10,656 bases of DNA from Pseudomonadota bacterium (GTDB lineage Bacteria > Pseudomonadota > Zetaproteobacteria > Mariprofundales > Mariprofundaceae): assembly GCA_002401635.1 (NCBI GenBank), contig NVTQ01000054.1, forward strand, positions 1-10,656, given 5' to 3'. Positions within the stretch are counted from its first letter, which is position 1; each line of letters begins with the position of its first letter. Positions 4,569 through 10,032 of this stretch are shown here, piece by piece. The position numbers and the translations under genes are program-made. Below the pieces are notes generated by a model. The model was not told the DNA's origin. It searched no databases and saw only the letters and a program-made list of their open reading frames with translations.

Positions 4569-5984
4569 CTAAATCTTATCCAGCTCTGCATCACACACAA
4601 TACGGTTGCGACCCGTTTCTTTCGCGTGGTATAAAGCTTTATCAGCTCGCTCTACCATCGACTGAAGCTCTTTATCATCATCTCTTAATGCACTCAAGCC
4701 AATGCTAATGGTCACTGACTTACCGTTCATTTCTTTAAAATATTCCGAAGCAATCGCAAGCCTTAATTTTTCAGCCGCTTGCTGAGCTTGCAAGACGTTG
4801 GCATGCGGCAAAACACAAACAAACTCTTCGCCGCCATAACGTGCTACAAAATCCGTTTCTCGCAGGCTTTTCTTTATCACTTGCGCAATGCGAACCAACA
4901 CTACATCACCACATGGATGACCATAGGTATCATTGACTGCTTTAAAATAATCAATATCAATCAACAACAGCGATAGGGGTTCATAATTTCTTCGTGCATG
5001 CTGAATAAAACCTTTGCGACTTAAATCAAAATATCCGCGATTATAAATACGGGTCAAACCATCAGTAATTGAATCTTCTACGGCATTATCTCTTTCTTGC
5101 TGCAACTGTTCTCGATGTTTTTCAAGCTCACCATTCAGCATCTCCAACTGCTCATAGCGTGAAATATCATTCATTGCGATTGCCATATCACCTGCTATTT
5201 TTTGCAAAAAATCCAATTGCGCATGGCTAGCTTCCTCATCCAAAGCCAACACCAAAGCCCCTAGTTTCTCCTGCCTATATAACATAGGAAACATCATTGC
5301 ATACTTAGGTTGCATGGTAGATGTTTCCCCTTCCAATAAAACTTCAACATCTGACAAATGTTTCAAACCGATCATATAAGCCAATGATTCTAATTCTTCT
5401 GACACATGCGTTAAAAATATTTTTTGCGCAACCGCATCATCATTCATGCCATGCACTGCTGTTAAAGAAATTTGATTCTTTTCTGCCGAGTACAGACACA
5501 CTGCCCCTGCAAATACTGGAAGGTGCATGCTAATCAATGCCAATACTTCGGAAAGTGCCATTTCTCGATCATTGGACGCTGACAAGATAGCAACCGCAGA
5601 AGCGTAGGTATGGTTCAATGCATCACGTTCCAACAGATTCTTATTAAGTGCCTCAACATTTTCCGCCATTTCAATAAAGCGGCAACCAAGAACGCCAAGC
5701 TCATCTTTTTCATGAAACACAAGGCGCTCATTCAGCACACCATCTTTAAAGTCACCTGTCATACGCATTAGCTGCCGAATGGGGTAAAGAATTCGTTTAA
5801 ACAAGAGCATTGCCAACAAAGATGCCAACACAATATTCAGCATAAAACAAAACATCACCAAATAATGCTGATTATCCCTTAATATAGAGAGTTGCCCAAA
5901 ACCAACAACAGATACAAGCACCATAAACAAAATGATAACCAAAACCCGTGTTTTAATGCATGTGAAAAACATGCCTACATACAA
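4569..5984 (-). CDS. Membrane-bound diguanylate cyclase (HAMP-GAF-like-GGDEF)
   Basis: The 471-residue inner-membrane protein should make cyclic di-GMP from two GTP. Hydrophobic segments at ~13-34 and ~43-63 are separated by only a few polar residues, so there is almost no periplasmic sensor. A HAMP-like linker (~64-117, with P68 and DELG at 94-97) follows. Then come a GAF-like region (~125-270), a probable coiled coil (~275-302) and a GGDEF domain (~305-465). The catalytic motif GGEEF (384-388) is intact, as are the metal-site residues in LIDIDYFKAVND (341-352) and the inhibitory I-site RETD (375-378), exactly five residues before GGEEF. Activity with product feedback inhibition is therefore predicted. 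The listed start is TTG at 5984. An ATG at 5972 would remove four residues, and neither has a convincing Shine-Dalgarno sequence. It begins 18-30 bp after the icd stop, so co-transcription and perhaps translational coupling with icd are likely. Confidence 0.9.
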   Translation of the reverse strand: MYVGMFFTCIKTRVLVIILFMVLVSVVGFGQLSILRDNQHYLVMFCFMLNIVLASLLAMLLFKRILYPIRQLMRMTGDFKDGVLNERLVFHEKDELGVLGCRFIEMAENVEALNKNLLERDALNHTYASAVAILSASNDREMALSEVLALISMHLPVFAGAVCLYSAEKNQISLTAVHGMNDDAVAQKIFLTHVSEELESLAYMIGLKHLSDVEVLLEGETSTMQPKYAMMFPMLYRQEKLGALVLALDEEASHAQLDFLQKIAGDMAIAMNDISRYEQLEMLNGELEKHREQLQQERDNAVEDSITDGLTRIYNRGYFDLSRKGFIQHARRNYEPLSLLLIDIDYFKAVNDTYGHPCGDVVLVRIAQVIKKSLRETDFVARYGGEEFVCVLPHANVLQAQQAAEKLRLAIASEYFKEMNGKSVTISIGLSALRDDDKELQSMVERADKALYHAKETGRNRIVCDAELDKI

Positions 5985-6002: not shown

Positions 6003-7745
6003 TTAATAACCTTTGGTAAAGTCAGTCTTATGGCACTTCGGACATGGTGGAATGCGGCCCGTCTTTTTAAAATGCATGGAGTGCCCACAATCTTTACATG
6101 TCAGGGTTCCTGCACTGGTAATCTCACCCGAACGACAAGACAACGATGCTCCAGTTTTAACAGCTGCCCCAGATAATGCGCTACCTGCTGCCTGCAACAA
6201 TGATGAAATCGATGCCAAGGCACCATGACCCAAACGCGCTGGATTTAATTTAATTTTGGCTTCATTACGAACATTTGTCGCAATTTGTCCAAAATCACGT
6301 TCAAGAAACCCTTTCAGTTTTTGACCTTGTTCTTCCGTAAATGCGCCCGCATGGGTCAATTGTTCACGGGCTTTTTCCATAGCAACATGCGCCACTTCGG
6401 ATGTTTTATCCGCTCCTGACTCAAACAACTCTTTGAACTTCGCCGCCAATTCATCATATTGATCTGCTTCTTCGCCACTAATCGCCGCATCATCCATATG
6501 ATCAATCACCGCACCACCAAATTCAGATGTTGATAATTTCACAGCATCATCCATCAAACGCTCAAAATCATAGGTCACAGTCTTGGCTTGTATGGCTCCC
6601 ATAATGCCTTTTTCCACCAAACCAGCCGCCTCATCCCAGCCCATATAACGCAACATCATCGCACCTGAAAGCATCATGGATGACGGATTCACCATATTTT
6701 TACCAGCATATTTGGGGGCTGTGCCATGCGTTGCTTCAAAAATAGCATGCCCTGTGTCGTAATTAATATTCGCACCAGGTGCAATACCAATGCCACCCAC
6801 TTGTGCTGCCAATGCATCAGATAAATAGTCACCATTAAGATTTAATGTCGCAATCACATCAAATTCTTTGGCGCGCGTTAACACCTGTTGCAGAGCAATA
6901 TCCGCAATACAATCTTTAATCACAATACCATTGGGCAATTCACACCAAGGACCATCACCGATTTCCACCGCACCGAACTCTTCCTTGGCAACCTCATAAC
7001 CCCAGTTGCGGAAGCCCCCTTCGGTGTACTTCATAATATTGCCTTTGTGAACCAAGGTGACTGATTTCTGCTCGTTCTCGATAGCATATTGAATAGCGGC
7101 ACGTACCAAACGTTTCGTACCTTCACTGGAAACAGGTTTGATTCCAATACCAGATGATTCAGGAAAACGGATTTTGGTCACGCCCATTTCATCTTGTAAA
7201 AATTTAATGACTTTTTTTACATCATCCGAACCAGCTGGCCATTCGATGCCAGCATAAATATCTTCTGAATTTTCACGGAAAATGGCCATATCGACATCTT
7301 GCGGACGTTTGACAGGTGAAGGTGTGCCTTTAAAATATTTCACAGGGCGCAGGCATGTATACAAATCCAACTTTTGGCGCAAAGCCACATTAAGCGAAGT
7401 AAACCCTTCACCAATCGGCGTGGTTAATGGACCTTTCAAACCAATTAAATATTCATTGAATGCTGCCAAGGTTTCATCAGGCAACCACGCCTCATCACCT
7501 TGCCCGTATAAATTCCATGCTTTTTCACCTGCAAAAACTTCCATCCAAGCCAGCTTGCGTTCGCCGCCGTAGGCTTTCTCAATAGCTGTACCCAACACCT
7601 TCTGGGTTGCGCTCCAAATATCAGGCCCAATACCGTCACCTTCAATGAAGGCTACAATAGGCTCATTGGGCACATTCAATGTGCCATCATCACCCATGGT
7701 TATTTTTTCGCCTGATTCAGGAAGTGTTATGTTTTCGAATGCCAT
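6003..7745 (-). CDS. icd: NADP-dependent isocitrate dehydrogenase fused to a YbeL-like (DUF1451) zinc-ribbon domain
   Basis: Residues 1-~417 are a complete E. coli-type isocitrate dehydrogenase, converting isocitrate to 2-oxoglutarate in the TCA cycle. Substrate residues are present: S117, N119 and R123 (TSLNVALR), R133, R157, Y164, K234, D306 and D310. NADP-specificity residues K345, Y346, Y392 and R396 are all kept. S117 matches the serine phosphorylated by AceK in E. coli. E. coli Icd ends where this domain ends. Here the frame continues for ~160 residues without interruption: a helical stretch (~428-500, with EKAREQL and LERDFGQ), a glycine/alanine-rich linker, and [12 protein letters not shown] leading to a zinc ribbon C550-x2-C553-x14-C568-x2-C571. 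This matches the layout of stand-alone YbeL/DUF1451 proteins. There is no internal ATG at the junction. The start ATG is supported by AAGAGG (7752-7757). The dgc gene follows after 18 bp. The function of the extension is unknown. Confidence 0.95.
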
Positions 7746-7853: not shown

Positions 7854-8138
7854 TCAATGGTCTTTTTGTGATATTTTCGCGGCTTTTTGTGCTTTTCTCT
7901 TGGCTTCTTGCGCTTTTAAGCGCGCCCGCGAATATTTTTTCTGCTCAATGGCATCCGAAGCTTGTTTTAAAGCTTCCTCTGCACCCCTTAAATAAGCCAC
8001 AGACTCAGACTGCGAACCACTCACCGCCTGCGCTGCTTTCACCGCTGAGCGCGCTTCCGCCATCTCCTGCACGGGTGGTTTTACCACACAAGCGACCAAT
8101 ACAAAAAGGCATGCAAATATCCATATACGCTTCATCAT
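7854..8138 (-). CDS. Small helical lipoprotein (DUF4398-like)
   Basis: The 94-residue protein begins with a basic tip (MMKR), a hydrophobic stretch (IWIFACLFVLVA) and the lipobox LVAC, with C17 as the predicted lipidated cysteine. The mature part of ~78 residues is almost entirely alpha-helical and rich in Ala, Lys, Glu and Gln, with heptad-like Ala spacing (ARSAVKAAQAV, EEALKQASDAI, ARLKAQEAKRKAQKA). This resembles the short lipoproteins annotated as DUF4398, whose role is not known to me. The C-terminal third is strongly basic. ATG codons at 8138 and 8135 are both possible; GAGGG at 8150-8154 is rather far upstream (~11-14 nt). The gene starts 31 bp after the aspS stop and is followed by a 108-bp gap to icd with no obvious terminator. 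The overlapping + strand frame lacks comparable features. Confidence 0.75.
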   Translation of the reverse strand: MMKRIWIFACLFVLVACVVKPPVQEMAEARSAVKAAQAVSGSQSESVAYLRGAEEALKQASDAIEQKKYSRARLKAQEAKRKAQKAAKISQKDH

Positions 8139-8169: not shown

Positions 8170-9966
8170 TCAATCAGATGTTGCTTCTGCCACTGTACGG
8201 CGTTTGCGTAAACCAAGCTCTTTCCACTGCAAATCACCCACTTCGGATGGAGAAGATGCCATCGGATCTGCCGCACGCTGCGTCTTTGGAAAGGCAATGA
8301 CATCACGAATCGATTCTGCATTGACCATCAAACTTATCACCCGATCCAAACCAAATGCCAAACCACCATGCGGAGGTGCGCCATATTTCAAAGCATTCAA
8401 TAAAAAACCAAATTTATCATTGGCTTCTTCATCAGAAATATTGAGAGCCTTTAATACACGCGATTGTACTTCGCTATCATGAATACGAATAGAACCACCA
8501 CCAATTTCCGTACCGTTCCAAACCAAATCGTAAGCTTGTGAACGCATCTCAAGCGGCGCTGTTTCAAGCTTATGCAAATCTTCTGGGTAAGGAGCCGTAA
8601 AGGGATGATGCAAAGCTTGCGGGCGTTTGTTCTCAGCATCCCATTCAAACATAGGGAAATCTACCACCCAGACAAATTGATTCGATTTGGCATCAAACAA
8701 ACCCAAATCTTTACCCAACTCCACGCGCAAATAACCCAAAGCATTATTGACCACATCTTTTGTATCTGCACCGAAGAATAACAAATCACCATTTTCGGCA
8801 CCACAACGCTCAAGCAAAGCCTGCAATACATCTTCCGATAAATTCTTCACAATCGGCGACTGCAAACCTGCTGGAATGTCATCCTTATCATTGACCTTAA
8901 TGTACGCCAAACCTTTGGCACCATAGATGGATACGAATTTGGTGTAATTATCAATTTTCTTCCGGCTCAATTGCGCACAACCATTTGGCACACGAATCAC
9001 TTTCACCAAACCGCCGTTATTGGCAGGGCCACTGAAGACTTTGAAGTCCACCGATTTCATCAAGTCGGTCACATCAATATGTTCCAGTCCAAAGCGCACA
9101 TCTGGGCGATCCAGACCATATTTATCCATGGCTTCGGCATAAGTCATACGTGGAAACGGTGCATCAGCAGCTTTGCCCATACCCGCTTCAAACATCGAAG
9201 AAATCAAACCTTCAGCCACAGCCATGACATCATCTTGATCCACAAACGACATTTCCAAATCGACCTGCGTAAATTCAGGTTGACGATCAGCACGCAAATC
9301 TTCATCGCGGAAACAACGGGCAATTTGATAATAACGATCCACACCTGCCACCATCAACAATTGTTTAAATAACTGCGGGCTTTGTGGCAAGGCATAAAAT
9401 GAGCCTGGATATACCCGTGAAGGCACCAAATAATCACGTGCGCCTTCAGGTGTGGATTTATTGAGAATCGGTGTTTCCACATCCAAGAAATCTTGGCTAT
9501 CCAAATAGTTTCGTGCGGCATGGGTCACTTTATGACGCAGCATCAAATTCTTTTGCATGACTGGACGGCGCAAGTCCAAATAGCGATACTCAAGGCGGTG
9601 TTGCTCGCCAGCATTGCAATCATCATCAATGGCAAATGGCGGTGTTTCAGCCTTATTTAACAATACAAGACTCGAAATCTTAATTTCAATTTCACCTGTT
9701 GGAAGCTTTGGATTCACAGCATCAACATCGCGTGGAATCACTTCACCAATCACTTCAATCACATTCTGCTGACGCATGGAATGCGCCAAAGCATGCATTT
9801 CAGGGGTGTCTGGGTGAGCAACCACCTGCACAATGCCAGAGCGGTCACGCACATCCAAAAAGATGACCCCGCCATGATCACGGTTGGTTTCAACCCAACC
9901 ATTGAGTCGAACCTGTTGCCTAAGATGTGTATTACGAAAATCACCACAGTATGTACGCGCTATCAT
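8170..9966 (-). CDS. aspS: Aspartate--tRNA(Asp/Asn) ligase
   Basis: The 598-residue class IIb synthetase charges tRNA-Asp with aspartate. An N-terminal OB-fold anticodon-binding domain (~1-105) is followed by the catalytic core, with QSPQLFKQ (195-202), motif 2 FRDED...DRQPEF (219-232) and motif 3 GLAFGLDR (535-542). The bacterial insertion domain lies at ~275-415. The ATG at 9966 is chosen over the ATG at 9987 because GGAGG (9975-9979) sits 8 nt before it, and because the protein then starts [10 protein letters not shown] like other AspRS. His31 in RDHGG is the residue found in the non-discriminating Pseudomonas AspRS. From this I infer that it may also aspartylate tRNA-Asn for GatCAB to convert. 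It is the first gene of a leftward set (aspS, lipoprotein, icd, diguanylate cyclase) and is divergent from ung. Confidence 0.97.
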
Positions 9967-9974
9967 TGCGAAAG

Positions 9975-9979
9975 CCTCC
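9975..9979 (-). promoter_or_regulatory. Ribosome binding site that sets the aspS start
   Basis: GGAGG on the minus strand lies 8 nt before the ATG at 9964-9966. It lies downstream of the alternative in-frame ATG at 9985-9987, so it rules out that longer start (7 extra residues). Confidence 0.85.
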
Positions 9980-10032
9980 AAAATCATTACCTTTTACTAG
10001 TTTTAAATCAAACAACCACCAAAAGGCGGCGC

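Follow-up and report, generated by a model that had tools for sequence, protein, structure and literature searches.

We found an NADP-dependent isocitrate dehydrogenase (ICD) of the E. coli type that continues, in the same reading frame, into a whole DUF1451 module with a predicted zinc ribbon at its end. The fusion recurs across the Mariprofundaceae, a family of Zetaproteobacteria that are mostly iron oxidisers. In the genus that holds Ghiorsea, the enzyme has withered and the tail has been kept in most sampled members. The tail therefore probably has a function separate from that of the enzyme. We lean towards a reading in which the protein is a bifunctional fusion: the tail would have a role independent of ICD, and the ICD fold would be its carrier or scaffold. 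The window, by which we mean the whole stretch of 10,656 nucleotides analysed here (contig NVTQ01000054.1), belongs to a 2.1 Mb assembly that is 79% complete.

The fusion gene in the window is one uninterrupted frame with an ATG start (Table 1). A profile search of its 580-residue product found Pfam Iso_dh at residues 31-413 (E 2.4e-90), followed by DUF1451 (PF07295; E 1.6e-26, profile positions 7-143 of 146). The latter match covers most of the profile and scores 93.7 bits with the whole protein, above the gathering threshold of 26.1; the tail searched alone gives E 1e-27. The NCBIfam model for NADP-ICD, NF005425, spans residues 4-417 with 692 bits against a cut-off of 490, and TIGR00183 reaches 673 bits against a cut-off of 567. 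In the alignment with E. coli Icd (1ai2), residues 5-417 correspond to 4-416. Together with the NF005425 match, this bears out the claim of an earlier note on this DNA that the ICD part ends at about residue 417, as E. coli Icd does. The same note had described the extension as a whole DUF1451 protein with a CxxC-x14-CxxC ribbon, a spacing that we also read from the sequence; the Pfam match agrees with this and rules out a tail unrelated to DUF1451. NF008261, a YbeL-type equivalog model, stays far below its cut-off of 183 (31.7 bits, or 39.7 with the tail alone), and its best stretch is mainly the zinc ribbon, residues 538-578. A sequence search for a solved structure of the tail gave no convincing match (best E 0.13). 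In the full-length structure prediction (mean pLDDT 75), the ICD fold is followed by four helices and then the ribbon. The helices lie at 423-442, 448-464, 470-498 and 508-533 in the numbering of the model, which is the residue number minus 1, and positions 492-532 in that numbering have pLDDT below 50.

Table 1. Features of the window around the ICD-DUF1451 fusion gene
Feature	Position	Strand	Basis
ICD-DUF1451 fusion CDS, 580 aa	6003..7745	-	ORF, Pfam and NCBIfam
NADP isocitrate dehydrogenase part, residues 1-417, equivalent to E. coli Icd	6495..7745	-	Profiles, 1ai2 alignment
Tail of the fusion, residues 418-580, made up of a linker, four predicted helices and the zinc ribbon	6006..6494	-	
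Pfam DUF1451 match, residues 445-577	6015..6413	-	Pfam
Predicted zinc-ribbon cysteines C550, C553, C568, C571	6033..6098	-	Alignment of fusions and relics
Small DUF4398 protein, adjoining the fusion	7854..8138	-	Pfam
aspS, syntenic marker for locating the site in other genomes	8170..9987	-	Pfam
HAMP-GGDEF protein, directly downstream of the fusion	4569..5984	-	Pfam

Judged by its sequence, the enzyme half is an ordinary, catalytically complete NADP-ICD of the E. coli type. Positions were assigned by the 1ai2 alignment. We take the substrate residues to be S113, N115, R119, R129, R153, Y160, K230, D283, D307 and D311 in E. coli numbering, and the NADP residues presumably are K344, Y345, Y391 and R395. 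All 14 are identical in 32/32 aligned fusions, a set made up of the window and 31 of the 36 ORFs of at least 500 aa from named records. Left out were L118 (a dead copy, described below), L131 (a frame change) and, by thinning, L101, L105 and L108. All four ribbon cysteines are present in each of the 31 aligned fusions that are complete at this end. E. coli Icd is a homodimer. The fusion shares with E. coli-type NADP-ICDs the full-model match and the 14 residues, but differs from them by 163 extra in-frame residues; moreover, neither AceK nor isocitrate lyase was found in the family (see below). Its tail has the helices and the CxxC-x14-CxxC ribbon of DUF1451/YbeL proteins, but is fused to ICD, whereas those proteins stand alone in 27 loci outside the order. 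ICDs of the Thermus thermophilus/Rickettsia type (TIGR02924, NF006673) likewise carry a long C-terminal extension, but belong to another subfamily, for which the fusion scores far below the cut-offs (TIGR02924, 203.5 against 561). The 496-residue Thermus protein (2d1c) aligns with the fusion only over 16-336, its C-terminal part being unaligned. We therefore rejected the idea that the tail is the Thermus-type extension.

PF07295 matches occur in 62 of the 74 Mariprofundaceae genomes; the other 12 have none, and many of the 74 are incomplete. In 43 of the 74 the fusion is a single frame of 571-621 aa from stop to stop, a count that takes in G033 (cut by a contig end) and G032 (with a frame change near the end), and five further fusions are cut at contig edges. 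The rest comprise one frame of 521 aa, 11 frames of 296-341 aa, and two weak, short matches (G031 and G097). Intact fusions are found in 14/14 genus codes of the family, and in the isolate records of Mariprofundus ferrooxydans PV-1, M. micogutta and M. erugo. The recurrence of the same frame in these genomes and isolates rules out an assembly error and makes a missed stop or frameshift at the junction very unlikely. Beyond the family, a sister-family genome (G037) carries the fusion as well, with 68% identity. Clade conservation, which the earlier note had raised as a possibility, is thus borne out by the 43 family genomes and G037. In a third family, the ICDs of G039 and G040 have no tail (the match stops at residues 418-420, and the G039 gene itself ends at residue 417), and no ICD of the E. 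coli kind was detected in G038. Among 37 Mariprofundaceae genomes we saw no E. coli-type ICD ending at 417: those found run into the tail or hit a contig end.

In the loci examined outside the order Mariprofundales, DUF1451 stands alone. We examined 80 of 209 loci of relatives, 53 assigned to Mariprofundales by record title or matching contig and 27 from outside, and all of the latter are stand-alone, with frames shorter than 220 aa. We also sampled 398 genomes from across the phylum. Outside the order, no over-cut-off DUF1451 match in this sample has a frame longer than 274 aa, and some weaker matches below the cut-off lie in longer frames of up to 704 aa. The nearest stand-alone tails are 38-44% identical and come mostly from Desulfuromonadales. 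In a tree of 50 chosen tails, the 28 fused or relic rows (20 fused, 8 relic or dead) are separated from the 22 stand-alone ones with support of 92/89. The two parts would have been joined, presumably once, in a common ancestor that Mariprofundaceae share with one sister family. The earlier note knew of no described ICD of this architecture, and we also found no example in the open-licence literature on ICD with DUF1451, a zinc-ribbon extension or Ghiorsea. The M. ferrooxydans protein is already in public databases, but its architecture, and the way in which this has eroded, seem not to have been described.

This erosion is found in the genus code g8, the genus holding Ghiorsea, with 16 genomes: two with an intact fusion (G026 and G033), one with a dead copy (G072), 11 with a short relic, one with a clean loss (G070), and one that is 56% complete and has no tail match (G062). 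Thus, 12 of the 16 keep the tail and have lost ICD catalytic residues. The dead copy (L118) is nearly full length, with 518 residues, and has one of the 14 active-site residues left. The short relics have about 287-315 aa from the first ATG; they lack roughly residues 75-350 and retain two ICD end segments. Profiles of these segments (residues 2-80 and 350-417) match all 12 dead or relic proteins, with lowest scores of 14.6 and 9.6 bits against 9.3 and 6.9 for the best of 2400 shuffles, and a profile of the ICD middle matches only L118 (110.5 bits) among the same 12. All 11 relic frames are open, and the four ribbon cysteines are kept in the dead long copy and in 10/10 aligned short relics. 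The helical part of the tail is itself shortened by small deletions in the five relics of the G017 type. In three relic loci (L030, L042 and L044), the relic has a DUF4398-like gene, recognised by reading, on one side and a dapE-like gene on the other, and aspS is a near neighbour; the downstream neighbour is thus dapE-like there, as opposed to HAMP-GGDEF in the window. In G070, which is 98% complete, the whole gene is cleanly gone, and only 80 bases separate the DUF4398-like frame from the dapE-like one (L193, 4218-4297). We withdrew G013 as a true loss of ICD, since its contig runs on for only about 350 bases after aspS.

The retained tail is under purifying selection. Among 11 close relic pairs (dS <0.7, seven related genomes), dN/dS is 0.01-0.06 for the tail and 0.13-0.30 for the ICD remnant, and the medians over all usable relic pairs are 0.104 for the tail (27 pairs) and 0.253 for the remnant (19 pairs). 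In intact fusions (41 fusions, 23 usable pairs) ICD has a median of 0.053, whereas the tail has one of 0.095 and ranges from 0 to 0.51, so that here the tail evolves faster and is not the more constrained part. Some pairs are near saturation. This larger set replaces an earlier one of 20 chosen intact fusions, in which four usable pairs gave a tail median of 0.039. The relic values bear on the idea that the tail regulates ICD in cis, in that zinc binding or cysteine oxidation in the ribbon would make the enzyme more or less active or stable, or alter its oligomer state. The invariance of the four cysteines in the aligned set and the failure to see a tail-less ICD among the 37 genomes are in its favour, but the tail is kept after ICD catalysis is lost, in close pairs it is more constrained than the remnant, and its relatives outside the order stand alone; we consider such a regulator unlikely. 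A redox or zinc sensor, as the earlier note suggested, could act on ICD in the intact proteins, but the relics cannot be explained in this way. The note had also offered the tail as a regulator in place of AceK. AceK was indeed not found (0/61 Mariprofundaceae genomes). AceK serves the glyoxylate branch, of which there is no sign here, since isocitrate lyase was not found either (0/74). The absence of both enzymes also counts against a cis regulator in general. We rejected the replacement of AceK because isocitrate lyase is absent too and the tail outlives the ICD catalytic core in one genus.

The relics of the Ghiorsea genus could instead be pseudogenes that are in frame only because they are recent, and would then tell us nothing about the tail. 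G072 may be seen as an intermediate on the way to G070, where the gene is already gone, and the remnant does evolve faster than the tail. With start codons chosen by us, a crude pattern for a ribosome site was seen ahead of only 3 of 10 relic starts; the dead copy has it too, as do 3 of 5 intact starts examined. However, open frames and all four cysteines in 11/11 relics and the low dN/dS of the tail in close pairs speak against decay. The tail tree adds to this. On it, the relics group with the intact fusion L104 (100/100), and a single clade of the 11 short relics, a group tested after the first tree, is rejected (AU p 0.013); under decay, the same core would then have to have been lost more than once. 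The same test on aspS with 8 short relics does not reject a single clade (p 0.28). Repeated truncation of the same core is therefore suggested by the tail tree, though not by aspS, and the pseudogene explanation appears quite improbable to us.

A second enzyme is available to many of these bacteria. Monomeric isocitrate dehydrogenase (IDH) catalyses the same reaction as ICD. It is a separate gene of a Pfam family (PF03971) different from that of the ICD half, and we found it in 32/74 Mariprofundaceae genomes and 3/14 genus codes. In g8 it occurs in 13 of 16 genomes, namely 11 of the 12 with a dead copy or relic, G070 and G062, and in neither of the two with an intact fusion (one-sided Fisher test of intact against lost, with G062 left out, 0.029, ignoring shared ancestry). 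The exception is G064, which has a relic; no monomeric IDH was found in this assembly, 97% complete and 9% contaminated, and its only other ICD-type match is leuB-like, an absence made unsure by the contamination. Elsewhere the two do occur together: genus codes g1 and g9 combine monomeric IDH with an intact fusion, and so does the genome of the window itself. The second enzyme may thus permit the loss of ICD, but does not force it.

The co-occurrence in 11 of 12 genomes would also be expected if the relic were a pseudoenzyme that regulates or stabilises monomeric IDH in trans. Purifying selection on the two retained ICD segments is weak, with dN/dS of 0.13-0.30 among the close pairs, and the segments are predicted to fold. 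The model of one relic (L114, 315 aa, from a 24-row alignment) has a mean pLDDT of 69, with block means of 77-94 for residues 11-60 and 81-150, which take in most of the remnant, 43-60 for the helices and 69-86 for the ribbon. In a Foldseek search with this model, the first 24 PDB matches are ICDs, several over about 60 residues at 1.3-1.6 A, and five matches reach E 0.001; the TM-scores are low (0.16-0.22), as only part of the model fits. The alignment behind the model contained ICD rows, so the match of fold is supportive rather than independent. G070 and the incomplete G062, with monomeric IDH and no tail found, and G064, with a relic and no monomeric IDH found, do not fit a role in trans, which we strongly doubt. 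That the tail is inert in intact fusions, an accident held by chance, might be argued from the retrieved portions of the literature, where no function of DUF1451 or YbeL is given, but is hardly credible given intact fusions in all 14 genus codes, the median tail dN/dS of 0.095 over 23 pairs, and the invariant cysteines.

We return to the bifunctional fusion with an independent tail. A DUF1451 module of 163 residues, comprising four predicted helices and a zinc ribbon, would have joined ICD in the ancestor of the Mariprofundaceae and the sister family. The tail would perform a role apart from isocitrate oxidation, with the enzyme as its carrier or scaffold. Where monomeric IDH was present, in the Ghiorsea genus, selection on the active site may have lapsed, and the catalytic core would then have been lost, with the tail and the two ICD end segments retained. 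Several observations count against this reading. No monomeric IDH was found beside the relic of G064, and G070, with the gene entirely gone, can evidently do without the tail. Intact fusions elsewhere also have monomeric IDH beside them, in the genome of the window included. The close-pair dN/dS values come from seven related genomes, and in intact fusions the tail is faster than ICD. Finally, few relic starts show the ribosome-site pattern, and the relic-model helices have low pLDDT. With its dead long copy, its relics and its clean loss, this one genus offers a natural series of an enzyme being pared down to a scaffold while an unrelated enzyme that catalyses the same reaction is present. 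As a tentative extension, ICD may be a disposable carrier that was whittled, perhaps repeatedly, to a small non-catalytic docking fold holding the module in place once another IDH was available, so that what had been an enzyme became a dedicated partner protein; it could then link carbon metabolism to stress or translation, or act on monomeric IDH. The partner docking suggested in the earlier note may hold.

The neighbours of stand-alone relatives give weak hints of stress or translation for the tail. In 20/20 loci from the best matches of the 398-genome sample, stand-alone DUF1451 is adjoined by a frame that we take to be LeuRS, and a GTPase of the 50S-binding kind lies near it in 12 of 28 loci (L136-L163; Pfam was run on one). 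In Acidihalobacter sp. (L138, 388-8459), it occurs with genes for three Hsp20 proteins, PsiE, an S30AE-like protein, DnaJ, an M48 peptidase and thioredoxin 2, a cluster reminiscent of heat-resistance islands. The fusion in the window is near aspS. It is conceivable from these neighbours, if doubtful, that the partner of the tail is a macromolecule in a stress or translation setting. DUF1451 occurs well beyond Mariprofundales, and its fusion to a well-understood enzyme offers a handle on the function of the tail. The dead and relic copies of g8 are natural ‘knock-outs’ of the enzyme half, and the tail can be tested in a protein with an assayable partner domain. The retrieved portions of the literature on DUF1451 and YbeL deal with expression changes, a stalling reporter and a display anchor, and give no function. 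In the part available to us, the CysDuF paper lists DUF1451 under electron transport. A crTCA study, in the text available to us, worked with the 2-oxoglutarate carboxylase from M. ferrooxydans rather than with the ICD of that species (PMC12183294).

We also noted some features of individual loci. The small DUF4398 protein beside the fusion in the window has, by reading, a lipoprotein-like start. The frame change of G032 (L026/L131) lies inside the zinc-ribbon part of the fusion, and is either a sequencing error or a real loss. In G039 (L031, 728-3501), the tail-less ICD abuts the start of a gene that we labelled, by reading, as membrane proton-pyrophosphatase-like. One Mariprofundaceae genome (G080) carries a second, stand-alone DUF1451 gene beside the fusion (L081, 1082-1699).
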